Source: Limihaloglobus sulfuriphilus (GTDB lineage Bacteria; Planctomycetota; Phycisphaerae; Sedimentisphaerales; Sedimentisphaeraceae). From it: a stretch of 64,000 nucleotides of DNA. Each line of letters opens with the position of its first letter. The stretch's first letter is position 1. A program made the position numbers and the translations under genes. The notes beneath the pieces were generated by a model. It ran no database searches. It worked only from the letters and a program-made list of their open reading frames with translations, and had not been told where the DNA came from. Below are positions 19,698 to 58,991 of this stretch, piece by piece. The stretch spans positions 3,658,001 to 3,722,000 of the forward strand of contig NZ_CP019646.1 of the NCBI RefSeq assembly GCF_001999965.1, read 5' to 3'.

Positions 19698-19899
19698 GCC
19701 GCCGATAATGTGTGTGTAACATTTTATTGTAATGTTAAATATTATTTTGAAGTGGTTTATGATGATTTTAATCTATGTTTATCGGCAAAGCAATCGTAGA
19801 GCTTCCAACGACAATATTATCCCGCAAAAAGTGCTACACGCATAACAATAATTGAGGAATTCAGGTTTAACCATAGAAATGATAACTTGCTTCTTGTTT

Positions 19900-19960
19900 C
19901 GTAAATTGGCTACAATTAACCGCAAAATGGCGTTGTTTAATTGTGCTTTTCGGATAATTT
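19900..19960 (+). promoter_or_regulatory. Operator A and promoter of the unit starting at 20115
   Basis: Direct repeat CGTAAATTGGC (19900-19910) and CGCAAAATGGC (19921-19931), starting 21 bp apart, with spacer TACAATTAAC. A -10-like TAATTT begins 24 nt after the second copy (19955-19960). Same arrangement as operators B to E. The rest of the 19698-20114 spacer holds nothing else recognisable; the leader to the start codon is about 150 nt. Confidence 0.75.
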
Positions 19961-25585: not shown

Positions 25586-28500
25586 CTACTTGAGTTTATA
25601 GTTATGTCCGGGCTGAATGTCAAATGAAATCGCACCTGTTAGAGCATCCACTTCAAATGGGATGATGCTGCCCGCTGCTGAATCAATAACAGTTATCTTA
25701 TTATCCAGGGCTTTTAACTCAATAATGCTTTGAGAAACGCCGTCAGGGTAATTAAATGTAAACTCTGTCTGCTCCCTTGCTATTGGATATATCTTCACCT
25801 TTAACGGAGATTCGTCTGATTCTCTAAGAATTACTATCCCTCTGCCGCCAACGAAACAGGGGGTTTTCTCGAGGGGCATTTTGAAGTCACTCAGCGTAAC
25901 AGGGCCGACAAATTTTTCTCCGCTGTCATAATCGAACCAGACCCCTTCGGGTAAATAGAGATCAAGCTTACATGATTTATAATTCTTAACCAGAGGGGCA
26001 GCCAAGACAGATTCACCAACCATCCATTGATAATGTTCCAGCTTCGAGGTCTCTTTGTCTTCAGGGTATGCAATGCTCAGGGGCGTTAATGTGTATGGAT
26101 AACCCGTGTCATAGGATTTTATGGCAGCATCATACATGTATGGGGCAAGGGCATAATGGAAGTTCACCATCTTCTTAAACGTATTCTTTTGCTCAGCAGT
26201 CCACGTATCCGGCGGGATTTTCCCCATTGCCAACCCCGCGGTAACTGACATCAGCCAACCATGCCGGATAGAACTCTCGGCATTATCAATATTGCCGAAA
26301 CCAATTGTGTCTGAATAAACATTAGGTGCTCCGCACGCGGCATATTGCATGTAGTTTAGAGGGCAGCGCCGCTGCATAGACTTTGCTCCATAGGTGTCGT
26401 TGATACGGAGTAATGTTCCCGGTGAGCTGTAACTTCCACAACGTGCCATAACCAGTCCGCCTTGTTCGGCAATCAAAGCACTCGGCCCGTTGAAAATATC
26501 AAAATATGTGCCCATATTCATCATGGTGTCTTCTTTTATGCCGTCAACACGCCATTTGTCGTATTGTTCAATAAACCATTCTGCAGCATCAGGTTTTCGT
26601 CCATCTATCATGTAGCAGTCTGTTTGAGGGTAATTACGTGATGCTATCTTTATCACTTCCCCCTCAGGAGACTTTAGGAAATAATCATTGTCCAGGGCGT
26701 ACTGCGACAAGGGATTGCCTTTGAATTCACGAGGTTTCTCTCTTCCGTCCGGCTTAACGTTTGAAGGATACGGCCCGCCGGGGGGCAGCATATTGCTTCT
26801 AAAGCCGATCAGCCATTTCAAATTGTTTTCCTTTAACCAAACTCTGAAATATTCATGGTTCTGAAATTGTTTTCCAAATTTCCCAAAGCTGGTAGTGGTT
26901 CCTCCCTCTTCCCAGAATCCAGAGCCGGTTACCAGCCAGCGAATTGGATAACCCTCTTTCAGTAATTCCTCTACCGCATCTTCAACGGCATCGATGCTCG
27001 TATTGTATTTCAAGGCATCCCAGGTCTCCCAGCCTAATTCAAATAACCTGAATTTAGGTTTAATATTTGCGTAACCATATTGCTTACGCAGAGAGAGATA
27101 GTTTTTGTATATCGTGTGCATATCACCCAAAAAATAGTAGAAGGAAACAGCCCCCTGTGTCTTTATTGCCATACTGTACTGGTCTTTTGACAATGTAACA
27201 TATTTCTCTCCCTCGTCGAAAAAGACTCCGGCAAGGTTGTTTTCAGGGAAAACGGCAAAAGTGCTGATCCATCTGTTACTTCCGCCGTTATTGAGAAAAC
27301 TGTATGTCTTGGCCTGATCTTCAACGAGATTAAACGATGAAGGGCCGTAACCGCCGGCATCTCCCAATCCGTGAGCCACGGGCATTCCGCCTGTAGAGAT
27401 CGAAACATCATTTATGCCGGTGTTTTCCGGAATAACCTTAAAGCACACCACTCCATCATTGATTGTTACATATACCTCGGCCTTTTGACCGTCCTTAGTG
27501 CAGACATCGAATCCTCCGGCTGATGAATCTTTTTTGTTTACTTCTATAACCGGCTGCCTGTTAATCTGCAGACCATTTACAGAATGAGGCGGTGCGGTTA
27601 TATTTTCTTGCCCGTCTGTAAAGCAGAATTTAAAACCGTCCGAGTTGATCTTAACATGGCAGTTACCATTTCTTACAGTATGAACGGCCTGATCGTCAGG
27701 GATAAACTCGGCGACGTAACCGTCATTTGGATCAAGCGGAATATCAATCGTACTATTAGATGTAATGTCGGAAAACTCCTGACGCTTAAAAACCTGACGT
27801 ATGAAGACTCCTGCCTGAATTAAAGGTTTCCCGCTGGATATAACAATAGCTTTATACTTAACACCGTCTTCAAGGAAGGACAGGGAGATATCTTTAAGCT
27901 CCTGTTTTTGTTCTTTACCGTTAATCGCTGCTAAGAACCACTTAGTGTTTCTTTTTCTGGCAAACATAGCCAGCACGCCTATCTTACTTTGGTCCAGGAC
28001 GATAGTCTCATCCCAGACTGCCGGAATATCCATTAATACGTCAAGAGCTCTTTTGGCATTATTGTCGTGTAAAAGGATGTCGGGATTCTCAGAGATGACC
28101 TGCATAGGTGATGTGAAAAGTATTGCGGTTGCAAGCTGATGTGCCCAGGTCGTAGGGCCGGCAAGGTGATAGCCCAGCGGGGTGTAATCGGCGTGCCCCA
28201 CGGCAAAACGGGTAAACGGCAGGGCGGCGTTATGAGATGCTGTGACGGGGCCTTCCCCCATTCTGTTCAGCTCAAGCCCTCGGATTCCTTCCCGTGTTAT
28301 CTCGTTAGGATATGTTCTGGATTCGCCCGTTGACTTGTGGCATCCGTGGAAGTTTACCATAAGTTTTCTTTGTGCCGCAATTGTCAATGCGGCTATTTCA
28401 AAATCGATAGTCTTTTTTGATTCTGAATTCATAAAATCAATCTTTACGCCCGCGGCCCCCGCCTTTTTAAGGTTATCCATAAAATCCCGCATGTCTTTCC

Positions 28501-29599
28501 AGTTATCTTCGGGGTTATCGAGCATGTTTGAATTAGCCCAGAAAAAAACTCCCACCGATTTTTCGCGGGCGTAAGCACATATTTTTTCAGCATTTTCCCA
28601 GTTGTTTTCCCAGGATATCCACCCATCGTCAACAATTGTATATTCAAATCCAAGCTCAGCGGCATAATCAACGAAATCCATTTCTTCTTCGGGGGTGCCT
28701 GTTCCAAGGGTGATCCAGCGCCAGACGCTTCTGCCGGGCTTGATATAACTCGTGTCGCTGAAAAGTTTTGGGTCGGGATCCGGGTTGAGATTGCTGATGA
28801 GATCGCTATTTACAAGTCCGTTGAGCTCTTTTACAATCACAGCCGCTCTCCAGGGGCTGGTAATAGTTCCATCAACTCTAAAGCCCGCAGAACCTTCGGT
28901 AAAGTTGGCCTGAACAATCCTCCCGGGCAGCGACTTTAACCTCATGCCGCTATAATTATAAAGAGCGGCCTCTGAAATGAGCATATAACCTTTATTGTCC
29001 GGTAGTTCCACGACCAGCGGCGGTCCCTGTATTGGGCCCTTGGGTGAGACCTTGTGGAGGTTTTCAGCATTTGTCTTTAGCCAGTAACCTGCATAACTTT
29101 TGAGTTTATAAAAATTTGGCCTTTCGAAATACCATACCTTGCTATCCGGGGTAATCTTCCAGCTCGAGGTTTCACCCTTTACTGTTCTGCTGCCATTTCC
29201 ATTGATAATATACCGGTATGCAAAGCCGTCGTTAAAGGCCCTTGCCTGCAGCTTATAAGTTGTAAGTCCTTTTTTTAACGTTATTTCTTGCTGATTGTGG
29301 TGGTCCCGGGCGAATGAATGCACACCTCGGGTGCTATATGTATTGTCAGATGTACTGCTTTTAACTGAATCGACAGCAAACCCGCTTCCATAATCGATAT
29401 CGTCAACTGTTATTCCCAAATCGGATTTTTCTATTACAGTCTGGCCTTCAAATTGTACCTGGCAGCTTAATCGGCCCGATTGGTCAACAAATACCTCTGC
29501 TTTAATGCTGCCATCAGGGCTTGATATATAGACACTCTGCTCAGCTGCGGCAAACTTAAAACAAACCAGTGAGACCAGAATACAGATTTTTTTTATCAT
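25586..29599 (-). CDS. GH97-GH31 fusion glycosidase
   Basis: 1337 residues with a signal peptide (1-19, ending FKFAAA). Residues about 20-655 are GH97-like: YISSPDGSIKAEVFVDQSG, DDGWISWENNW (326 on), AGAAGVKIDFMN with Asp388 where retaining GH97 alpha-galactosidases have the nucleophile, HGCHKSTGESRTYPNEITRE and GPTTWAHQLATAILFTSPMQ. Residues about 700-1337 are GH31-like: LGWETWDALKYNTSIDAVED, RVDGIKEDTMMN at the nucleophile position and WMVGESVLAAPLV, with the GH31 end LYLPEGVWFDYDSGEKF and PCFVGGRGIVI. Both families act on alpha-glucosides or alpha-galactosides, so the protein may strip two linkages in sequence. First gene of the minus-strand pair with the sulfatase. Confidence 0.85.
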   Translation of the reverse strand: MIKKICILVSLVCFKFAAAEQSVYISSPDGSIKAEVFVDQSGRLSCQVQFEGQTVIEKSDLGITVDDIDYGSGFAVDSVKSSTSDNTYSTRGVHSFARDHHNQQEITLKKGLTTYKLQARAFNDGFAYRYIINGNGSRTVKGETSSWKITPDSKVWYFERPNFYKLKSYAGYWLKTNAENLHKVSPKGPIQGPPLVVELPDNKGYMLISEAALYNYSGMRLKSLPGRIVQANFTEGSAGFRVDGTITSPWRAAVIVKELNGLVNSDLISNLNPDPDPKLFSDTSYIKPGRSVWRWITLGTGTPEEEMDFVDYAAELGFEYTIVDDGWISWENNWENAEKICAYAREKSVGVFFWANSNMLDNPEDNWKDMRDFMDNLKKAGAAGVKIDFMNSESKKTIDFEIAALTIAAQRKLMVNFHGCHKSTGESRTYPNEITREGIRGLELNRMGEGPVTASHNAALPFTRFAVGHADYTPLGYHLAGPTTWAHQLATAILFTSPMQVISENPDILLHDNNAKRALDVLMDIPAVWDETIVLDQSKIGVLAMFARKRNTKWFLAAINGKEQKQELKDISLSFLEDGVKYKAIVISSGKPLIQAGVFIRQVFKRQEFSDITSNSTIDIPLDPNDGYVAEFIPDDQAVHTVRNGNCHVKINSDGFKFCFTDGQENITAPPHSVNGLQINRQPVIEVNKKDSSAGGFDVCTKDGQKAEVYVTINDGVVCFKVIPENTGINDVSISTGGMPVAHGLGDAGGYGPSSFNLVEDQAKTYSFLNNGGSNRWISTFAVFPENNLAGVFFDEGEKYVTLSKDQYSMAIKTQGAVSFYYFLGDMHTIYKNYLSLRKQYGYANIKPKFRLFELGWETWDALKYNTSIDAVEDAVEELLKEGYPIRWLVTGSGFWEEGGTTTSFGKFGKQFQNHEYFRVWLKENNLKWLIGFRSNMLPPGGPYPSNVKPDGREKPREFKGNPLSQYALDNDYFLKSPEGEVIKIASRNYPQTDCYMIDGRKPDAAEWFIEQYDKWRVDGIKEDTMMNMGTYFDIFNGPSALIAEQGGLVMARCGSYSSPGTLLRINDTYGAKSMQRRCPLNYMQYAACGAPNVYSDTIGFGNIDNAESSIRHGWLMSVTAGLAMGKIPPDTWTAEQKNTFKKMVNFHYALAPYMYDAAIKSYDTGYPYTLTPLSIAYPEDKETSKLEHYQWMVGESVLAAPLVKNYKSCKLDLYLPEGVWFDYDSGEKFVGPVTLSDFKMPLEKTPCFVGGRGIVILRESDESPLKVKIYPIAREQTEFTFNYPDGVSQSIIELKALDNKITVIDSAAGSIIPFEVDALTGAISFDIQPGHNYKLK

Positions 29600-29672: not shown

Positions 29673-29733
29673 ATAATAGCATAATTTAAAATAACATAAA
29701 CGCCAATTAGCGTTAAAATGTAGCCTGTTTGCG
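29673..29733 (-). promoter_or_regulatory. Operator C and promoter of the GH97-GH31/sulfatase unit
   Basis: On the minus strand CGCAAACAGGC (29733-29723) and CGCTAATTGGC (29712-29702) start 21 bp apart with spacer TACATTTTAA. TATTAT begins 24 nt after the second copy (29678-29673). It is divergent from operator B, 223 bp away. Confidence 0.75.
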
Positions 29734-29955
29734 AAGCCTTGCAGTGTTTATGAAATCTGATTTTTAAAGATGTTCCGGGCTGACATATCTGGTAAGTATA
29801 TGTTCAATAGTCTTTTATGGTGTAGGAAACTGGTGCCCATGTCAGTTGCCGCGTCCTGTTTTGCCCATGCTGAAATCTTTAGGTTAAAGACGCTGTCTGG
29901 TATTAGAAAATGCTTATTTAGACCACAGCAATTTCTGTAGTTGACTTCAAACGTT

Positions 29956-30016
29956 CGTAAACTGGCGATATGTTAGCGTAATTTGGCGTTTGTTGGGTGG
30001 GGCTTTCTGTTAATAT
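29956..30016 (+). promoter_or_regulatory. Operator B and promoter of the symporter/oxidoreductase/regulator unit
   Basis: CGTAAACTGGC (29956-29966) and CGTAATTTGGC (29977-29987) start 21 bp apart with spacer GATATGTTAG. TAATAT begins 24 nt after the second copy (30011-30016). The first gene of the unit starts at 30058. The remainder of the 29600-30057 spacer holds nothing else I can name. Confidence 0.78.
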
Positions 30017-30057: not shown

Positions 30058-31809
30058 ATGACAGGTATGGATTATACTGTTTTACTGGCCTATATCGTTG
30101 GCGTGTTTGCGATTGGCGGTTTTTTTGGCAGTAAGGTTAAGAGTTCTAAGGACATGTTCGCTGCGGGCGGGCAGTCGCCCTGGTGGGTTTCCGGGCTGAG
30201 CGGGTTTATGACCATGTTTTCTGCCGGCACCTTTGTCGTATGGGGCGGAATCGCTTATAAATATGGAATCGTAGCTATTTCAATTAACATGTGTTACGGT
30301 GTCGCCGGTTTACTGGTTGGCTTCTTTGTAGCGGGTAGATGGCGAACCATGGGGGTTAAAACGCCTGCCCAATACATTCAGCTCAGGTTTGGCAAAAAAG
30401 CGATCAATTTCTATACCTGGACTATGCTTGTTTACCGCATGGTGGGCGTGGCAGTAGCTTTGTATTCTCTGGCAGTACTTTTGACTGCACTTATGCCGCT
30501 GTCTGAGGGTAACTTTATGAGAGACAGCGATACAGGTAATTTATCGCTTAACTGGGCAATAGTGCTGTTTGGTGCGTTTATGGTATTCTATACCATGGCA
30601 GGCGGGTTGTGGTCAGTATTGATGGCTGATGTATTGCAATTTATCGTTCTCAACCTTGCGGTTATATTTGTCGTGCCGTTGTGTTTTATGGACATGGGTG
30701 GTGTATCCGGTTTTGTGGAGAGTGTTCCCAACTCATTCTTTTCACCTACCAACAATGAATTTACCTGGTTCTTCCTTGCAGGCTGGTGTGCGATACATTT
30801 CTTTATGGTTGGAGCAGAATGGGCGTTTGTGCAGAGATTTATTTGTGTGCCGACTCCCAGGGATTCGCAAAAGGCAGCATGGATGTTTGGCATACTATAT
30901 GTAATAAGCCCGTGGCTCTGGATGCTGCCGCCAATGCTGTATAAAGGCATGAATGCAGATGCTAACCCTGAAGAGGCATACATCCTTGCCTGTCAGACAG
31001 TGCTGCCCGAAGGTATGCTTGGAATGGTTCTTGCCGCCATGGTATCAGCTACCGCGAGTATGGTGAGTGCCCAGTTGAACGTTTTTGCCGGCGTGCTGAC
31101 CAGCGATTTCTACTGCCGGATATTCAAGCCCGACGCCGTCGAAAGACAGCTTGTAAATGTTGGGCGTATTATGACGATACTGCTTGGAGCCGCTCTTGTG
31201 ACAATTGCAATACTGATTCCGTATCTCGGCGGTGCTGAGAAGGTTATCTTGAGTATTACCAGTCTGATAGTCGGGCCTCTTCTTGCACCTTCAATATGGG
31301 GGCTTTTCAGTAAAAAGATCAATACCTCAGCGGTCTGGTTTACAGGTGGTATCTGTTTTACTCTTGGGGCCTTGTACAGATTTGGATTCTCTCAGAACGG
31401 CTGGTTTACCGGTATCGAAGGATTTGATTCAGTGATTCAATTCTGTCAGGCTAACAACAGGAATATCGAGGTTTTTCTCGGAGTGCTGCTGCCGGTTCTT
31501 ATTCTTACTTATTTTGAATTGACCGTTACCACAAAGAGCAGAGGTTATGAAAATGTTGCTGCGAAAATCAAGGAAGAGATTATTGTAAAGGTACCTGTAG
31601 TCAGTGAGCTGCCGGCGTTAGTGGTGGCCTGCTGTGTTGGCTTTTTTGGTTTAATCATGACTATCCTGGCTATTGTAAACCCCGATCAGTGGAAGATTAT
31701 ATCGATTTTCGCTGGTGTTCTTTATTTGATAATGATTGTTTCCTGGCATTCATATTTCAGCAGAAAGAAAGCATTGGCAAAACTTGAACTGGCAGGCAGC
31801 GATATTTAG
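30058..31809 (+). CDS. SSS family sodium:solute symporter
   Basis: 583 residues from the ATG at 30058 (GGAG 8 nt upstream). A longer in-frame TTG start at 29983 is unlikely because it would translate the promoter and begin with an operator base. About 13-14 transmembrane helices. It opens MDYTVLLAYIVGVFAIGGFF followed by GSKVKSSKDMFAAGG, the SSS helix 1 region. FMTMFSAGTFVVWGG carries the family-typical serine-rich unwound helix, with FMVFYTMAGGLWSVLMADVLQ, the segment following the SSS signature, and WAFVQRFICVPTPRDSQKA later. It probably imports a sugar or sugar acid released by the enzymes of the locus, driven by Na+, which fits the Na+ pump at 11.4-14.9 kb. First of three co-transcribed genes under operator B. 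Confidence 0.88.
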   Translation: MTGMDYTVLLAYIVGVFAIGGFFGSKVKSSKDMFAAGGQSPWWVSGLSGFMTMFSAGTFVVWGGIAYKYGIVAISINMCYGVAGLLVGFFVAGRWRTMGVKTPAQYIQLRFGKKAINFYTWTMLVYRMVGVAVALYSLAVLLTALMPLSEGNFMRDSDTGNLSLNWAIVLFGAFMVFYTMAGGLWSVLMADVLQFIVLNLAVIFVVPLCFMDMGGVSGFVESVPNSFFSPTNNEFTWFFLAGWCAIHFFMVGAEWAFVQRFICVPTPRDSQKAAWMFGILYVISPWLWMLPPMLYKGMNADANPEEAYILACQTVLPEGMLGMVLAAMVSATASMVSAQLNVFAGVLTSDFYCRIFKPDAVERQLVNVGRIMTILLGAALVTIAILIPYLGGAEKVILSITSLIVGPLLAPSIWGLFSKKINTSAVWFTGGICFTLGALYRFGFSQNGWFTGIEGFDSVIQFCQANNRNIEVFLGVLLPVLILTYFELTVTTKSRGYENVAAKIKEEIIVKVPVVSELPALVVACCVGFFGLIMTILAIVNPDQWKIISIFAGVLYLIMIVSWHSYFSRKKALAKLELAGSDI

Positions 31810-31853: not shown

Positions 31854-33668
31854 GTGAGTGATTCATTTAAAACAATAGAACATAAGGTGGATTTTTGTGT
31901 AGTCGGCGGCGGTCTTTCGGGCATGTGTGCCGCGATTGCCGCGGCACGTAATGGCCTGAAAGTGGCCATAATGCAGGACCGGCCTGTTTTTGGCGGCAAT
32001 TGTTCCAGTGAAATAAGAATGTGGATATGCGGTGCCCGCGGCAGGGACAATAAGGAAACAGGGCTTGTTGAAGAATTTATGCTGGAGAATCTGTATCGAA
32101 ATCCCAATAAGAATTACTCTATCTGGGACAGCATTCTTTTTGAAAAGGTTCGCTATGAGCCCAACATTACGACTATGCTGCTCAACTGTTCATGTAACAA
32201 CGCGGAAATGGATGGCTCACGAATTGAATCGGTTAGAGGCTGGCAGGGCACAACGCAGTCATGGCATATTGTAAGGGCGAAAATTTTTGCTGATTGTTCC
32301 GGCGATTCGGTCCTGGCACCACTTACCGGTGCCCAATATCGCGTCGGTCGTGAGGCTAAGACTGAATTTAATGAAGATATAGGCCCCGAAGAGGCAGATA
32401 ATAATACTATGGGCAGCAGCTGCCTGATCCAGGCCCGCGAAATGCCGACAGAGCAGCCTTTTACTCCTCCGGCGTGGGCATATAAATACACTTCATGCGA
32501 TGACTTTAAGCACCGAACACATAACTTAAGCGAGACACAGAATTTCTGGTGGATAGAGATCGGCGGCCGGCTGGACACTATCGCAGATGCTGAAACTATA
32601 CGTGATGAGCTGCTCAAGATCGTTTACGGGGCATGGGATCACATAAAAAACCATTGTGAGAAAAAAGAACAGGCTAAGAACTGGGCGATTGACTGGGTCG
32701 GTATGCTGCCGGGTAAGCGTGAGAGCCGCCGGTATGTCGGCGATTACATAATGACACAGCATGACGTGGAGTCAGAAGGCCGGTTTGACGACCTTGTAGC
32801 GTTCGGCGGCTGGCCTATGGACGATCACCATCCGGGGGGCTTTAGCTATACCGGAGATCCAACATATTTCTATAATGCCCCTTCACCTTACGGCATTCCG
32901 TATAGATGCCTTTACAGCAAAAATATAGATAACCTGTACTTTGCCGGCAGGAATATCAGTGTTACGCACGCTGCATTGAGCTCGACACGTGTAATGGCTA
33001 CCTGTTCGCTGCTTGGCCAGGCGGTCGGAACGGCCTGTTCGATCGCTGTACATGAGAATATAACACCTCGCCAGGTATATGAGGACGGGTATATCAGTGA
33101 GCTCAAAGAGATGCTTATGGATAATGACTGTTATCTGCCGTGGAATCGCAGAGATATATCAGAGATGTCGGTGCGGGCAGAGCTGATTGCCTCAAACGGT
33201 AATCCAGAGCAGTTACGTAACGGTATCGAGCGGGATATTGACGGAGAGGAAAACGGCTGGAAAGCTGGAATAAATGACTGGATCGAGTATAATTGGAGTT
33301 CAGTTCAAAATATAAGTGAAATCCGCATTATTTTTGACAGTAATTTAAATCGAATGCTTAGAACGAAAAAATTGTCATCAGATCAGGTCAATGGTGAAGG
33401 GGATCCTGCCGCCGCATCTGCCCGTGATATGTGGTGCTGCTATCCCTTAGACCAAAAACCCAAGACTGTTCCAGAGTCTATGGTTAAGGCTTTTCGTATT
33501 GAAGCTAAGGATTCAAATGGAGATTGGGCTGTTGTTTATTCAGAAACAAACAATTATCAGAGGCTTGTAAAAATACCGTTGAATCTTGAAACCGAGGCAA
33601 TTCGTCTGATCCCAGAGGCCACCTGGGGCGCAGAGCAAGTCCATATCTTTGCCTGGGAGGTCAGATAG
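31854..33668 (+). CDS. FAD-dependent oxidoreductase with a C-terminal beta domain
   Basis: 604 residues, GTG start. DFCVVGGGLSGMCAAIAAAR (about 11-30) is the GxGxxG FAD-binding Rossmann motif, followed by PVFGGNCSSEIRMWICGARG. LPGKRESRRYVGDYIMTQHD and DNLYFAGRNISVTHAALSST, near the end of the oxidoreductase part (about 430), are typical of the FAD-dependent oxidoreductase group (PF12831-like) common in planctomycete sugar loci. The last ~130 residues (from about NGNPEQLRNGIERDIDGEEN) look like a beta-sandwich or discoidin-type domain (GWKAGINDWIEYNWSSVQN). There is no signal peptide, so it is probably cytoplasmic. A role in oxidising an imported sugar or glycoside is suggested by its position between the symporter and the regulator; the substrate is unknown. 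Confidence 0.82.
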   Translation: MSDSFKTIEHKVDFCVVGGGLSGMCAAIAAARNGLKVAIMQDRPVFGGNCSSEIRMWICGARGRDNKETGLVEEFMLENLYRNPNKNYSIWDSILFEKVRYEPNITTMLLNCSCNNAEMDGSRIESVRGWQGTTQSWHIVRAKIFADCSGDSVLAPLTGAQYRVGREAKTEFNEDIGPEEADNNTMGSSCLIQAREMPTEQPFTPPAWAYKYTSCDDFKHRTHNLSETQNFWWIEIGGRLDTIADAETIRDELLKIVYGAWDHIKNHCEKKEQAKNWAIDWVGMLPGKRESRRYVGDYIMTQHDVESEGRFDDLVAFGGWPMDDHHPGGFSYTGDPTYFYNAPSPYGIPYRCLYSKNIDNLYFAGRNISVTHAALSSTRVMATCSLLGQAVGTACSIAVHENITPRQVYEDGYISELKEMLMDNDCYLPWNRRDISEMSVRAELIASNGNPEQLRNGIERDIDGEENGWKAGINDWIEYNWSSVQNISEIRIIFDSNLNRMLRTKKLSSDQVNGEGDPAAASARDMWCCYPLDQKPKTVPESMVKAFRIEAKDSNGDWAVVYSETNNYQRLVKIPLNLETEAIRLIPEATWGAEQVHIFAWEVR

Positions 33669-33669
33669 G

Positions 33670-34839
33670 ATGCATAATCTGCCGCGAATACTGTTGTCTG
33701 TTGAAAGTTCGAGAGGGTTTGGCCGTGATCTTCTGACCGGGATATCAGATTTCACACGCATGTACAATCCCTGGACAACATACCGTAAACCTCCTTTTTT
33801 CCGTTATGGCAATGTTGATAAATTCGATTTTGACACTATCAAGAATGACCTTGAAGGCATTATTACGCGAATTCCGGAGGAAATTCCGGTTATTCAGGAG
33901 CTTGGTATTCCGGCAATCGTTGCTACAGTGCTGCTTCCCCCGGGTTTCAAACTGGATCCGCATTATCCGACAATTACTTCAAACAATGAGGCAATTGCTC
34001 AGGTGGCTATGGATTATTTCATCTCGCAGGGGTTTAGCAATGTTGCTTATTGCGGGTTTGGCGATGTGTCCTGGTCGCTCCAGAGAAGAGAAGCCTTGAA
34101 GGTCTATGCAAAAGAGTTGGGATATGAAATCTTGTGTTATGACCCGCCGTCAGAGAGCAGTTGGGAAGAGGACATCCAGATTATCGGCGATTGGCTGAAA
34201 GTATTACCTAAGCCGGTTGCAGTGCTGGCATGCAGTGATGACAGGGGTGAAGATATAATTCAGGCGGCCAAGCTCTCACGTGTAAGGATACCCGAAGAAG
34301 TTGCGGTATTGGGTATCGACGATGATAACCTCATATGCAACCTGTCAAATCCGACACTTTCCAGTATAGTTCTCAACACCCAGAAAACAGGATTCCAGGC
34401 GGCAGAATTGCTTAACAGGTTAATCAACGGTGAAGAAACAATGACCGGTCAGAGGCTCCTGCTGCAGCCGCTGTATGTTGAAGCACGGCAGTCAACCGAT
34501 ATCCTTGCAATAGAAGACCCGGAAGTTGCCTGTGCCCTGGGTTTTATTCGCCAGAAAGCAAGAGAGGCCATTCAGGTACAGGATGTAGTCGATGCCACCG
34601 GTATATCCCGGAGGGTGCTTGAGAGCCGGTTCAGGAAAAATCTTAACCGCTCAGTACTGCAGGAAATCAGGAGTGTTCGTGTAAAGACAATAGCCAGAAT
34701 GGTTTGTGAAACAAACATGTCTATAAAATCTATTGCTATATCGCTTGGATTTACAAGCATTGACCATATTTCCCGCTACTTTAAAAAGGAAAAAGGCATA
34801 AGTTTGCATCAATACCGGCAGAAATACGGGCAAATTTAG
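33670..34839 (+). CDS. XylR-type regulator: LacI-like ligand-binding domain with C-terminal AraC HTH
   Basis: 389 residues from the ATG at 33670 (GGAGG 9 nt upstream; an in-frame TTG at 33649 lies inside the previous gene). N-terminal periplasmic-binding-like domain (1-275): PRILLSVESSRGFGRDLLTG, then GFSNVAYCGFGDVSWSLQRR, AVLACSDDRGEDIIQAAK and EEVAVLGIDDDNLICNLSNP, as in XylR. The C-terminal AraC-family domain (about 285-389) has TGISRRVLESRFRKNLNRS in the first HTH and MSIKSIAISLGFTSIDHISR in the second, then YFKKEKGISLHQYRQKYG. It has no N-terminal LacI HTH, which is the XylR layout. The gene starts 1 nt after the oxidoreductase stop, so it is produced from operator B, implying autoregulation. 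It is the likely protein binding operators A to F. Confidence 0.92.
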   Translation: MHNLPRILLSVESSRGFGRDLLTGISDFTRMYNPWTTYRKPPFFRYGNVDKFDFDTIKNDLEGIITRIPEEIPVIQELGIPAIVATVLLPPGFKLDPHYPTITSNNEAIAQVAMDYFISQGFSNVAYCGFGDVSWSLQRREALKVYAKELGYEILCYDPPSESSWEEDIQIIGDWLKVLPKPVAVLACSDDRGEDIIQAAKLSRVRIPEEVAVLGIDDDNLICNLSNPTLSSIVLNTQKTGFQAAELLNRLINGEETMTGQRLLLQPLYVEARQSTDILAIEDPEVACALGFIRQKAREAIQVQDVVDATGISRRVLESRFRKNLNRSVLQEIRSVRVKTIARMVCETNMSIKSIAISLGFTSIDHISRYFKKEKGISLHQYRQKYGQI

Positions 34840-34863
34840 TAGAGAATAGTCAGTTTAACCTTT

Positions 34864-34925
34864 CGTATTATGGCTACTGTTTAGCGTAATATGGCGTGGT
34901 TAATGCTGTTTAAATGTGATAAGAT
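34864..34925 (+). promoter_or_regulatory. Operator D and promoter of the giant surface protein gene at 34989
   Basis: CGTATTATGGC (34864-34874) and CGTAATATGGC (34885-34895) start 21 bp apart with spacer TACTGTTTAG. TAAGAT begins 25 nt after the second copy (34920-34925). It lies 24 bp after the regulator gene. Confidence 0.72.
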
Positions 34926-34988: not shown

Positions 34989-37900
34989 ATGAGTAAGATT
35001 ATTTGGATTTTGGCAGTGCTGTTATGTGTTCAGGCAGGCGTTTATGCGGTTGACTGGATAGGCGGTTATGGAGACAATGAATGGGATCTCTGGTTAAACT
35101 GGAACCCCGACATACCCACGGCGGCAGACGACGTTACGGTTAAGTTAGATGATCCTGAACATACCCCAATATTGATTGATGCAGATGTTGTTGGCGTGTG
35201 TAAAAGGCTCCGTTTAGGCTCTGACGCCGACAAATACGGCAATATCCTCATGACCGGCGGTACCCTAAATATCAATAGCCACTTAGAGCTTGGTGACTAC
35301 GGTACCGGAGTGTTTGACCTTGAAGGCGGCGAAGTAAATATGACACACGATGTCAAGATTGGTGACGGAGCTACAGGCCACGGTACCTTGAATATTTCCG
35401 GCAGTGCGGTCATTAACGCAGGAACAAGCAGATTTATAAACGTGGGTAACGCCGGTTACGGTGAAATGAATATGACCGGCGGAACCATCAATATTCCTAC
35501 CTATGATTTGCAGGTTGCTGATGCCGGTGGTATAGGTGTTGTAAATATGTCAGGCGGAACTATTAATATTGCCCGTAATCTAAAGGTTGGCGGCGGAAAT
35601 GCCGGCGGAAACGGCAAGTTCACAATGACCGGCGGCGTTATTAACACGAAATCTCTGTATGTGCCTGAGGCGACCGGAGCATTAGGTCTGCTTGAAGTTT
35701 TTGGCGGTACTATAAATGTTACAAGCGGTTATCTCACGATGAAAGATGGCGGCTATATTGATATCAAGAATGGCCAGCTGGTAATGGCTGATTCCACCGG
35801 ATCTGCAAAAAGCAACGTAGATGGGAAAATTGCCACCGGGCAGATCTATGGTTTTGGCGGTTACGGCAGTGTTGAGGCCGTCTGGAACGGCAGTGATACA
35901 ACTACAGTAACGGCAACAGCTCCAGACGAAGCATATTTACTCGCTCCGACTGGGGAGGTTTATGAGCCTTCAGATCCTAATGGTCTGGAAGTGACCTGGG
36001 AGTATGGAGGACAGGCAACCGAACATCATCTGTATTTCAGTACAGATGAGGCTGGTGTTACAGCCAGAACTGCAGGGTATCAGGGCAGCGTTACTTCTCC
36101 GCATTTTATAGCACCTGAAAACTATGTTCCAGGAAATACCTATTACTGGGTAGTTGACGAGAGCGATGGAGTAACAACATGGCCGGGAACGTTTGTTAGC
36201 GTTACAATTGTCGCCCAATCCCCATATCCTGAAAATCTTCAGCCTCAGGGTCTTGATGTTGATATCGACACTGACCTTAGCTGGGCAGACGGCGCACAGG
36301 CGACTGAGCATTATGTATATATCAGTGCAGATGAGCAGCTCGTTATCGATATGGATGCCTCTGTTATGGTGGGCCCGGCAGTCTCGCCCTATAATATTGA
36401 TACACTGGTTAATAATACTACCTACTTCTGGAGGGTCGTCGCAACAGACGGTGTGACTGACTGGGCTTCGGAAGTGGTTAGCTTCAGGACTGTTCCTGCC
36501 GCTTCGGCAAGCTGGGCACCCCAGGATCCGGGCGATCTTTCGTGGACAAATCCGGCTAACTGGACCGGCGGCGCAGGCGCGGGTACCACTTCAAACATAG
36601 ATGATCCGGATTATCCCGTATATATAAGCGCTGGTATGACAACACCGGAAGTAGCAGGTATGGGCGGAAATCTGTTTATAGGCAGCACTGACGGATTAAG
36701 CGGAAGTGTTGTAGTTGATGGCGGCGAGCTGACTGTCGCCGGTTTGCTTGATATTGGTGCTTACGGAACAGGTTCGCTCACTGTAAACAGCGGAACCGTG
36801 GGCGGAACAGCAACCATTAACCTTGGCCATAGCAGTACCGGCGCAAGGGGCTTTTTAACTATAAACGGCGGAGAGGTTAACTCGGCAGATAATTTCTGGA
36901 TCGGCAGAGTTGGTGATGGCTTTGTGGAAGTTAATGACGGGACACTTAGTGTCGCACCCGGCAAAGACCTTATTATGGCTAACGGGCTGGATTCATCGTT
37001 GACAATAAACGGCGGCCTCGTTGATGTGCCTAACAACAGCCGTATTGGATATAAACATCATGGTTCTCTGATAGTTACAGGCGGTACTCTAAGAACTAAG
37101 AGCTTACTTGTTCCATACAGTGACAGCTACCCCGGCAGCGGTAATGTTACCATTACAGGTGGAACGATTGAGGGCCTGGTACAGCTCAGGAACAATGGTA
37201 CAATGAATATTGACGGCGGTACGATCATATCTGCCGGAGACCAGGTTGTCCGTTACACCGAGACTTATGCGTCCAAGATTTCTGCTTATGGCGGTTTTGG
37301 CACCCTTTCGGCAGTTTATGACTCCGATACGGATACCACAACACTTACCGCTATAGCTCCTGACGGCACTGTAATTGATCCATTTGACCAGTATGCTGAC
37401 ACAGCGGCCCTTACGGCCGAGTGGAGTGGTACGGCTGCTGCCGAGATTGATGATACGGATCCATTTGTAGGCAGCAGAGCTATGACGATGACTTACTCAG
37501 GAACATCATCGAACCTGTCACGCTCGATAACAGCTGATGTATCCGGCCTTTCTATAGAAGCCAGACTTCTTTCACTGTATGTCAGAGGCGATTCGGGCAA
37601 TGATGAAGCAGAATTGTCTGTAACTCTGGACAGCTCTGCGGGTAGTGCTGCCGTTGCATACACCGGCATGATTTCAGAAGATGGCTGGCAGAGATGGCTA
37701 ATACCGCTTACGGATTTTGCAGGTGTCGATCTCAATGATATCACCGGTATTACAATCACGGTTGGCGACGGAATTTCATCTGCATCGGGCACCATAGGCA
37801 TAGATCAAATACAGTTTGCTGAGGCTCAATGTATAGCTGATTATACCATCGCCGATATGAATAATGACTGTGTTGTAACTTTTGGTGACTATCTGGCGCT

Positions 37901-38780
37901 GGCAGATGACTGGATGTTGTCTGGTTACGATGTATCGCCTGAGGCAGTTGGCGGTGATCTTGTTCTTTACTATCCTCTTGATGACACAGGTGTTACAGTT
38001 GCTGACCAGACCGGCAGCTATGACGGTGCAACCACCGCTGATAACTGGCAGTCAACAGGCGGTTTTGACGGCGGGGCGTACCTGAGCTTTGACGGAGACA
38101 ATTTTGTGACCATACCGGCAGCGGTTATTGACAATATTGCTAATACCGGTGAGCTCTCCATTTCCATGTGGGTAAGAGGTGATGCCTCCAGTGATGGTGT
38201 ACGGCAGATGATCTTCAGCTCAAGAACTCCGGCGGATGAAGGCCATATTCTCAACTTTGATATTCAATATTATTCAGAAGAGGAATTTAGCCTTGTATTT
38301 GAATCGGGACATGACACCGACCGCCAGGAAGACTGGGAATGGTTCTATTGGGGCTGGAATTCTTCAGGAATGGATATCCCGCGTGATGACACTGTGTTCT
38401 ATGACGATTGGAACCATGTTGTATGTACCAAGAATCTTGCTACAGGTGTTCAGAGGCTGTATTTCAATGGTGTAGTTGTTGGCGAGAACCGTTCGGCTAC
38501 AACAGCGATTCCGCCAAGCAGCGACATAGGCTTCTTTATTCTCGGCGGGTTTGCACCGGGCAGCCTTATGTACAATGGCGACCTGGATGATTTTAAAATC
38601 TACAATAGAGAGCTGAGTCACGCTGAAATATTGACGCTTTCGGGCTATACTGACCCGACTTATCATCAAGATATCCTTTCAGATGTTGATTTTGATGAAA
38701 GCGACGATATTGGTACCGGCGATCTTCAGATTATGGCTGATGTATGGCTTCAGGATCAGAGGTGGCCGGCAGCATTGTAA
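34989..38780 (+). CDS. Giant secreted repeat protein with LamG-like and dockerin-like domains
   Basis: 1263 residues with a good Shine-Dalgarno (GGAG). Signal peptide ends GVYAVDW. Several blocks follow. First (about 20-310) is a beta-solenoid of repeats such as GTGVFDLEGGEVNMTHDVKI and GEMNMTGGTINIPTYDL, of the autotransporter-associated type. Two FN3-like repeats follow (about 320-510; TEHHLYFSTDEA, TEHYVYISADEQ with GNTYYWVVDE). A second solenoid block covers about 515-800. A beta-sandwich (about 805-950) is followed by a dockerin-like DMNNDCVVTFGDYLALADDW (955 on) and a LamG-like domain (about 990-1210; ELSISMWVRGDAS, WNHVVCTKNLATGVQRLYFN). A final dockerin-type half DFDESDDIGTGDLQIMADVW ends the protein. 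Probably binds glycan at the cell surface. Transcribed alone from operator D and ended by the terminator at 38802. Confidence 0.85.
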   Translation: MSKIIWILAVLLCVQAGVYAVDWIGGYGDNEWDLWLNWNPDIPTAADDVTVKLDDPEHTPILIDADVVGVCKRLRLGSDADKYGNILMTGGTLNINSHLELGDYGTGVFDLEGGEVNMTHDVKIGDGATGHGTLNISGSAVINAGTSRFINVGNAGYGEMNMTGGTINIPTYDLQVADAGGIGVVNMSGGTINIARNLKVGGGNAGGNGKFTMTGGVINTKSLYVPEATGALGLLEVFGGTINVTSGYLTMKDGGYIDIKNGQLVMADSTGSAKSNVDGKIATGQIYGFGGYGSVEAVWNGSDTTTVTATAPDEAYLLAPTGEVYEPSDPNGLEVTWEYGGQATEHHLYFSTDEAGVTARTAGYQGSVTSPHFIAPENYVPGNTYYWVVDESDGVTTWPGTFVSVTIVAQSPYPENLQPQGLDVDIDTDLSWADGAQATEHYVYISADEQLVIDMDASVMVGPAVSPYNIDTLVNNTTYFWRVVATDGVTDWASEVVSFRTVPAASASWAPQDPGDLSWTNPANWTGGAGAGTTSNIDDPDYPVYISAGMTTPEVAGMGGNLFIGSTDGLSGSVVVDGGELTVAGLLDIGAYGTGSLTVNSGTVGGTATINLGHSSTGARGFLTINGGEVNSADNFWIGRVGDGFVEVNDGTLSVAPGKDLIMANGLDSSLTINGGLVDVPNNSRIGYKHHGSLIVTGGTLRTKSLLVPYSDSYPGSGNVTITGGTIEGLVQLRNNGTMNIDGGTIISAGDQVVRYTETYASKISAYGGFGTLSAVYDSDTDTTTLTAIAPDGTVIDPFDQYADTAALTAEWSGTAAAEIDDTDPFVGSRAMTMTYSGTSSNLSRSITADVSGLSIEARLLSLYVRGDSGNDEAELSVTLDSSAGSAAVAYTGMISEDGWQRWLIPLTDFAGVDLNDITGITITVGDGISSASGTIGIDQIQFAEAQCIADYTIADMNNDCVVTFGDYLALADDWMLSGYDVSPEAVGGDLVLYYPLDDTGVTVADQTGSYDGATTADNWQSTGGFDGGAYLSFDGDNFVTIPAAVIDNIANTGELSISMWVRGDASSDGVRQMIFSSRTPADEGHILNFDIQYYSEEEFSLVFESGHDTDRQEDWEWFYWGWNSSGMDIPRDDTVFYDDWNHVVCTKNLATGVQRLYFNGVVVGENRSATTAIPPSSDIGFFILGGFAPGSLMYNGDLDDFKIYNRELSHAEILTLSGYTDPTYHQDILSDVDFDESDDIGTGDLQIMADVWLQDQRWPAAL

Positions 38781-38836: not shown

Positions 38837-38852
38837 AGAAACAATTTTTTTT

Positions 38853-38913
38853 CGTGATCTGGCGATAATTTATCGCAATATGGCGTTTTTTCATTTTTTA
38901 TTTGTGGTATAAT
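38853..38913 (+). promoter_or_regulatory. Operator E and promoter of the pseudopilin gene
   Basis: CGTGATCTGGC (38853-38863) and CGCAATATGGC (38874-38884) start 21 bp apart with spacer GATAATTTAT. A perfect -10, TATAAT, begins 24 nt after the second copy (38908-38913). It is the clearest promoter of the set. Confidence 0.82.
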
Positions 38914-38964
38914 TAACATATTCAATTTAAATATATGTTTAAAATAAAGCGAAAGGTAATTACG

Positions 38965-39792
38965 ATGAAACATAAAAGAGGCTTTACTCTTATTGAACTG
39001 CTTGTTGTAATTTCAATCATTGCCGTACTCATGGCAATTTTAATGCCGGCTTTAACAAAGGTTAGAGAGCAGGCAAAAGATGTAATATGCAAATCTAATA
39101 TGCGTCAATGGGCCATCGTATTTGCCGGGTACAACAACGACAATGACAACCTCTACCCCCGCGGCTGGCATGGCGTTGCGGCTGATGACGGAGGACAGTA
39201 TATCTGGGCCGCGGCCCTGAAACCTTATTATGATGATGTAGCTCTCTTGATGTGTCCTTCCGCGACAAAGACACAAGATGACGCCCAGCTCAAACAGAAA
39301 TGCTGGAGTTTTCCTAAAATGGATATAGATGGGAGCCAGCCTTACAGGTATATGTCCGGATTACAGGGCAGTTACACGGTAAATCACTGGCTCGGTCAGC
39401 CGGTTTATCCGCAGGGCAGGCCAAAGGAAAACTACTGGAGGAGAACAGGGCATCCTGAAGCCAACAATGTACCGCTTCTTCTTGAAGGCCCGATGTGGCT
39501 TGCCAGACCTGACGACACTGACAGACCTTCAAAATACAATGGCCAGAACGCATGGAACGAGGTAAGCGGTGCCCTTGGCGAGATGGCACGGGTAACTGTT
39601 CAGAGGCACGGCAAGCGTTCTGGAACAACAAACGCAACATTTATGGACGGCAGTATGAGACAGGTCGGCCTAAAAGAGCTTTGGACACTTAAATGGCACA
39701 AGCAATTTGACACAAAAAACAGGTGTACTCTGGCAGGCGGGATGGAAAAATCGTACTGGCCTGAATGGATGCGTGACTTCAAGGACTATTGA
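38965..39792 (+). CDS. DUF1559-like / type II secretion pseudopilin-type protein
   Basis: 275 residues from the ATG at 38965 (AAAGG about 9 nt upstream; the in-frame ATG at 38935 would add ten residues). KHKRGFTLIELLVVISIIAV followed by LMAILMPAL is a class III (type IV pilin) signal: basic n-region, cleavage before Phe after Gly, Glu at +5. The rest has NMRQWAIVFAGYNNDNDNLY and TTNATFMDGSMRQVGLKEL, which is typical of planctomycete pseudopilins of the DUF1559/prepilin family. Such proteins are very numerous in planctomycetes and may form fibres; a direct role in glycan capture is unproven. It is regulated by operator E and followed by a terminator at 39823-39866. Confidence 0.85.
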   Translation: MKHKRGFTLIELLVVISIIAVLMAILMPALTKVREQAKDVICKSNMRQWAIVFAGYNNDNDNLYPRGWHGVAADDGGQYIWAAALKPYYDDVALLMCPSATKTQDDAQLKQKCWSFPKMDIDGSQPYRYMSGLQGSYTVNHWLGQPVYPQGRPKENYWRRTGHPEANNVPLLLEGPMWLARPDDTDRPSKYNGQNAWNEVSGALGEMARVTVQRHGKRSGTTNATFMDGSMRQVGLKELWTLKWHKQFDTKNRCTLAGGMEKSYWPEWMRDFKDY

Positions 39793-58880: not shown

Positions 58881-58892
58881 AAACATTTGTTT

Positions 58893-58924
58893 CGCAAAAT
58901 GGCTGCTTATTTGCGTAAAACATA
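58893..58924 (+). promoter_or_regulatory. Operator F (degenerate second copy) of the CE7-GH106 unit
   Basis: CGCAAAATGGC (58893-58903) is followed 21 bp later by CGTAAAACATA (58914-58924), which keeps CGTAAAA but has lost TGGC. No -10 lies at the standard 24-nt distance; TATGTA (58943-58948) and TATAGT (58952-58957) are the nearest candidates. Weaker than operators A to E. Confidence 0.5.
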
Positions 58925-58991
58925 GTTGTTTTTTATTTTGGATATGTAAAGTATAGTATATAAAGTTGTTTTAAACCAGGAGTTAGTATTT

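Follow-up and report, generated by a model that had tools for sequence, protein, structure and literature searches.

How is a whole polysaccharide locus switched on, and by which protein? To our knowledge, the switching-on of the many polysaccharide-degrading genes of PVC bacteria (planctomycetes, verrucomicrobia) has been largely unstudied. The question is raised here by a 64,000-nucleotide stretch of the Limihaloglobus sulfuriphilus genome (the window), in which a preliminary description took one gene to encode a XylR-type regulator, the likely master activator of the locus, and proposed that it also regulates itself through operators on both sides of its gene. The features discussed below are collected in Table 1.

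Table 1. Features of the window, in order of position; operators and their targets are predictions.
Feature	Position	Strand	Details
Operator before ORF 20064 and URO-D gene	19899..19932	+	CGTAAATTGGC-N10-CGCAAAATGGCG; score 32.4, highest in window
GH97 + GH31-like domain protein, operator A target	25586..29599	-	Pfam
-10-like TATTAT, operator A	29673..29678	-	sequence
Operator A, GH97/GH31-like protein + sulfatase (minus strand)	29701..29734	-	CGCAAACAGGC-N10-CGCTAATTGGCG; score 24.4
Operator B, symporter-oxidoreductase-regulator	29955..29988	+	CGTAAACTGGC-N10-CGTAATTTGGCG; score 28.5
-10-like TAATAT, operator B	30011..30016	+	offset 22 after site, within family peak 21-24
Sodium:solute symporter	30058..31809	+	PF00474 3.5e-32; first gene of operator-B operon
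FAD-dependent oxidoreductase	31854..33668	+	PF12831 1.5e-85; upstream of regulator, operator-B unit
GGGAGG, likely ribosome-binding site of regulator	33655..33660	+	Shine-Dalgarno-like; sequence
XylR-type regulator	33670..34839	+	389 aa, ATG start; Pfam; full-length match to E. coli XylR 4fe4
AraC-type DNA-binding domain	34591..34821	+	specificity residues E318 (HTH1 recognition helix), H366 (HTH2 recognition helix)
Operator D, faces gene 34989, away from regulator	34863..34896	+	CGTATTATGGC-N10-CGTAATATGGCG; score 28.4
-10-like TAAGAT, operator D	34920..34925	+	sequence
LamG-type domain protein, operator D target	34989..38780	+	1263 aa; PF13385
Operator E, faces prepilin-like gene, GH43/GH95 beyond	38852..38885	+	CGTGATCTGGC-N10-CGCAATATGGCG; score 28.7
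-10 box TATAAT, operator E	38908..38913	+	sequence
Prepilin-like gene (N_methyl), first after operator E	38935..39792	+	PF07963 9.1e-10
Operator F, probable, weak, before AXE1 and GH106 genes	58892..58925	+	score 20.1; second half-site degenerate

The identity of the regulator is clear. Pfam finds both of the domains that had been read from its translation: the sensor part is a LacI-type Peripla_BP_3 domain (2.3e-30, residues 115-276) and the C-terminal part an HTH_18/AraC domain (2.5e-17, residues 308-384). A periplasmic-binding-like N-terminal sensor joined to a C-terminal AraC HTH in a single chain is the XylR-type arrangement, and comparison with E. coli XylR (4fe4) gave a match that is collinear end to end (E 4.8e-42, ~26% identity). 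The regulator is thus of a known kind, and what has become newly readable is its operator code. As previously described, its gene starts 1 nt past the oxidoreductase gene (stop at 33668, ATG at 33670); a TTG further upstream, at 33649, is an unlikely start because the Shine-Dalgarno-like GGGAGG sits before the ATG. Position 218 of the sensor is Asp, the residue in 116 of 132 relatives being Asn, and this may mark a different ligand. In line with the statement that the locus encodes no other regulator, Pfam found none among the 33 window proteins scanned.

Once extended, the candidate operators of the window can be aligned without gaps, each consisting of two direct half-sites, CGYAAWWTGGC, with starts 21 bp apart, or about two helical turns, as in XylR-type operators. 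A half-site model, (T/G)CGCAAAATGGCG, trained on the sites of other species with the L. sulfuriphilus genome left out, gave exactly six matches scoring above 20 in 64 kb, all of them intergenic (19899+, 29701-, 29955+, 34863+, 38852+ and 58892+), and at spacings of 15-20 and 22-26 bp the window held no site above 20. Markov shuffles gave a mean of 0.04 sites above 20 per 64 kb, and none of 100 shuffles had one above 24. We required the full two-half-site pattern because an initial 16-bp core pattern, allowed 3 mismatches, did no better than chance (18 matches vs 37 for its reversed control).

The genome, a single 3.87-Mb contig of 99.97% completeness, encodes seven strong paralogues of the regulator (32-44% identity). 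Throughout this contig, the TGGC pattern, when one mismatch is allowed, gives five matches, of which four are in the locus and one adjoins paralogue L061. For a TGAC variant, allowed up to three mismatches, there are nine, vs none for the reversed pattern; six of these lie around paralogue L057 and the other three at 2504708-2528289, before large genes of which one encodes a GH2 protein (L187 7708; L188 7332 and 11758). No family regulator is found in the 39 kb around these three sites, and their control probably comes in trans from an Asn366 paralogue (L056 or L057). Two further places in the genome carry sites of other appearance. Divergent, half-degenerate operators adjoin an FAD_oxidored protein at 64439 and 64919 (L189 9439(-)/9919(+)), with no family regulator in the surrounding 19.5 kb, and two operators at L191 (10126(-), 15458(-)), whose first half-site has TGTG, represent a third half-site type and may point to one more specificity class in the genome.

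Do related regulators have the same kind of operator beside them? The family occurs in 72 of 118 genomes searched (E 1e-60, window genome counted), and the named relatives belong to the Sedimentisphaerales, other Planctomycetota, Verrucomicrobiota, Kiritimatiellota, Bacteroidota and Paenibacillus. None of the 118 relatives' genomes has an orthologue above 49% identity (the best in another genome reaches 49%), and a single-sequence scan of the named genomes for one returned nothing; because footprinting had no closer orthologue to work with, we used paralogue-wide tests. The DNA around 120 regulators from other genomes was surveyed in two separate sets of 60 loci. Counting near-identical 11-mers in intergenic DNA, a procedure that assumes no motif, gave 140 pairs at 21 bp vs a background of ~20 in the first set and 176 vs ~20 in the second, while coding DNA gave only multiples of three, as expected. 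The half-site fitted across the relatives is the one used for the window scan, and 69 of 132 regulators have beside them a 21-bp pair with a score above 16, vs 0-6 regulators at each other spacing from 14 to 32 bp; 53 of the 132, some of them on short contigs, have no recognisable site beside them. The peak persists in cross-validation with training and test loci kept apart (of 72 held-out regulators, 34 exceed 16 at 21 bp, vs 0-4 at other spacings of 16-26 bp), and it is seen likewise in other Planctomycetota and in other phyla. Genomes with more regulators also tend to have more sites (Spearman 0.56 over 118 genomes, p 4e-11, vs 0.19 for the reversed-pattern control), and two genomes of the same family without the regulator (G001 and G003) have zero sites. 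The co-occurrence of operator and regulator that the preliminary description had asked for is therefore found, and the opposite outcome, an orthologue next to a different operator, was not seen in these comparisons: the variants beside paralogues follow the recognition residues (TGAC with Asn366). In two XylR-type regulators of Bacteroidota (L250 5438 and L273 5275) we also noted CGCAAATCG-like repeats at 21 bp; judged from sequence, the CGCAAA box is common to regulators beyond the planctomycetes. An operator for this regulator family was not found published in the open-access literature.

The bases of the half-site also vary with the protein. In a set of 72 regulator-site pairs, no position of the DNA-binding domain is associated with the site more strongly than residue 366, which lies in the second HTH's recognition helix: at the third base of TG[G/A]C, His goes with G and Asn with A. 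At residue 318, in the corresponding helix of the first HTH, Glu or Gln accompanies CG at the half-site start and other residues accompany CC, CA or CT, a rule with which 66 of 71 pairs are fully concordant over both half-sites. For a phylogenetic pair test we used a tree inferred from the sensor domain alone, taking pairs from the best tree regardless of branch support (1-2 pairs remain on well-supported branches). Nine disjoint tree pairs bear on 318 and CG, of which 8 agree and 0 disagree (p 0.008); five bear on 366 and TGG/TGA (4 agree and 1 disagrees for half-site 1, 3 agree and 0 disagree for half-site 2), so that the 366 association draws on few independent changes. The pattern is that of AraC/XylS proteins, with 318 co-varying with the 5′ CG box and 366, through those few independent changes, with the 3′ TGGC box. 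The window regulator has E318 and H366, and its predicted operators have CG and TGGC (in operator F, in the first half-site only); its paralogue L057, with N366 and a detectable operator, has TGAC sites. The DNA-binding domain aligns ungapped with that of MarA, a protein without a sensor domain, placing E318 at MarA Q45, which we take to make a base contact in the MarA-DNA structure, and H366 at MarA T93. The co-variation at 318 and 366 indicates that these proteins bind these sites.

The placement of the sites points to activation. In 57 of 69 cases in the family, the best -10 box lies 21-24 bp past the second half-site; the operators run into a weak -35 region, in which the hexamer 17 bp ahead of the -10 is merely T-rich. 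An operator adjoining the -35 region is the class II geometry of XylR-type regulators, and the arrangement of operator, -35 and -10 reads as the layout of a class II AraC-type activator. The predicted target units in the window are the GH97/GH31-like protein and a sulfatase (operator A), the symporter, oxidoreductase and regulator (B), the LamG protein (D), the prepilin-like gene with GH43/GH95 genes beyond (E), and a protein without assigned function plus URO-D (19899); operator F, a weak site, probably drives AXE1-GH106. The GH97 alpha-galactosidase-like part and the GH31-like C-terminal part of the operator A target are fused in one frame of 1337 aa (window 25586-29599). For the prepilin-like gene, a MKHKRGFTLIELLVV start near 38965 is the likelier one.

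Autoregulation calls for a more qualified answer. That operators flank the regulator gene is correct, with B upstream of its operon and the first half-site of D (34864) exactly 24 bp past its stop (34839), but D faces the next gene and is not autoregulatory. In the family, 66 of 72 sites are oriented to a neighbouring gene, either from upstream of the regulator on the other strand (46) or from downstream of it on its own strand (20), and autoregulation is therefore not the family rule; a site heads the regulator's own operon in 5 of 79 members with sites, and the window is the sole case among these 79 with other genes ahead of the regulator in an operon headed by its site. That operon runs from symporter through oxidoreductase to regulator, the genes being co-directional and separated by 44 and 1 bp. 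The part of the claim that stands is thus the one that concerns operator B: because B drives this operon, autoregulation through it is plausible, if atypical for the family.

Taken together, we consider it very probable that a one-component, XylR-type sugar-sensing activator controls this polysaccharide locus through six class II operators with 21-bp direct repeats. The LacI-like N-terminal domain would take a small sugar, and a dimer would then lie with its AraC-type domains on one face of the helix, on the two direct half-sites two turns apart; within each half-site, the first HTH (E318) would read the CG box and the second (H366) the TGGC box. Because the operators adjoin a weak -35 with a -10 box ~22 bp on, the bound dimer would be expected to activate RNA polymerase by class II contact. 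The six operators would place the locus (~19.9-63.4 kb) under a single activator, and positive feedback is expected because the operator B operon ends in the regulator's own gene. The direction of regulation and the sugar ligand are suggested by this geometry together with what is known of the family. The ligand may be a released sugar imported by the symporter, as the preliminary description proposed; an attempt to transfer a ligand from the neighbours of the closest relatives failed, as their contexts differ (GH127 and an FGGY kinase at L069, for example).

Could the operators instead belong to a paralogue encoded elsewhere in the genome, with the linked regulator controlling something else? 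L058, L059 and L062 likewise have E318 and H366, so the main specificity residues are common to several paralogues, and we kept these three as possible binders because prediction of the exact site from HTH residues is weak (mean fractional rank 0.43 vs 0.5 at random) and separates paralogues poorly. We nevertheless regard this as unlikely, given that TGGC operators concentrate in the locus and occur elsewhere mainly beside two paralogues, that family sites adjoin their own regulator, and that the linked regulator has the top predicted fit of the eight (1.76 vs 1.09 for the runner-up). About as improbable, or slightly more so, is a regulator that acts mainly as a repressor or in both directions, an idea to which the LacI-like sensor and the annotation of E. 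coli XylR as a dual regulator lend some weight; against it stand operators that adjoin the -35 at a fixed distance from the -10, with the T-rich -35 hexamer of a class II activator layout, the orientation of family sites to the neighbour gene rather than to the regulator, and a Vibrio XylR homologue that is, by experiment, a xylose-responsive activator (PMC12125979). Finally, the repeats are located at promoters and might be structural or promoter-linked sequence with no dependence on the regulator, but repeats whose number follows that of the regulator over 118 genomes, which are lacking in the two same-family genomes without it, and whose bases co-vary with recognition-helix residues make this very hard to credit. 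The role of master activator proposed in the preliminary description is thus well supported by the operator architecture common to relatives, the class II geometry and the co-variation of operator and residues.

Known systems resemble parts of the proposed one. E. coli XylR (4fe4, 4fe7) has the same collinear LacI-type sensor and AraC-type domain and direct-repeat operators, and a 9/13 repeat with the 21-bp spacing seen here occurs in the xylA-xylF region; it differs in sequence (~26% identity) and in regulating xylose transport and catabolism rather than six units of a polysaccharide locus. Our half-site model finds no 21-bp pair above -2 in the xylA-xylF region. We rejected the idea that the regulator is an orthologue of E. 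coli XylR, that is, a xylose regulator, since the operator sequence differs and no xylose isomerase or kinase domain occurs among the window proteins scanned. Closer in scope is XylRA of a Vibrio beta-1,3-xylan locus, for which binding and a xylose response were shown experimentally (PMC12125979): like the regulator proposed here, it is a one-component activator of the XylR type that governs an entire polysaccharide locus through several operators, each of two direct repeats, but it is gammaproteobacterial and near E. coli XylR, with AT-rich repeats and other genes in its locus. The AraC-type hybrid two-component regulators of Bacteroides are likewise specific to polysaccharide loci and use direct repeats averaging 21 bp, but they are membrane sensor-kinases with periplasmic sensors, unlike the one-component, LacI-type sensor found here (PMC3878776).

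What do such operators control in the family? First targets in relatives include GH43, GH2, heparinase II/III, arabinose isomerase, FGGY kinase, KDPG aldolase, GFO/IDH/MocA, a symporter and URO-D. Prepilin-like genes, called by a custom sequence pattern (Pfam N_methyl is found in 10 of 30 targets scanned), account for 15 of 69 first targets but for 1 of 79 genes that adjoin a regulator without being targets (Fisher p 4e-5); when first targets are clustered at 60% identity, the count is 13 of 52. First genes of this N_methyl/DUF1559 kind were noted in the window (38935-39792) and at L138, L128, L109, L124, L164, L111, L161, L175, L090 and L118. We put forward, tentatively and as less likely than not to hold, that planctomycetes and related phyla use XylR-type activators as a locus-by-locus code, in which each polysaccharide locus would have its own sugar-sensing activator and a readable 21-bp operator, with a prepilin-like gene as a main target, and that these prepilins may be sugar-induced, substrate-matched subunits of polysaccharide-binding fibres. 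Dextran bound to pili-like fibres has been observed in Planctopirus limnophila and Gemmata obscuriglobus (PMC5394234), and prepilins under operator control would be candidate subunits of such dextran-binding fibres. Operators recognised from relatives make it possible to treat the present locus as one regulated unit. An operator that is readable from sequence and tied to recognition residues would likewise allow regulons to be drawn in PVC genomes, and may so link genes without assigned function, the prepilin-like genes among them, to substrates.
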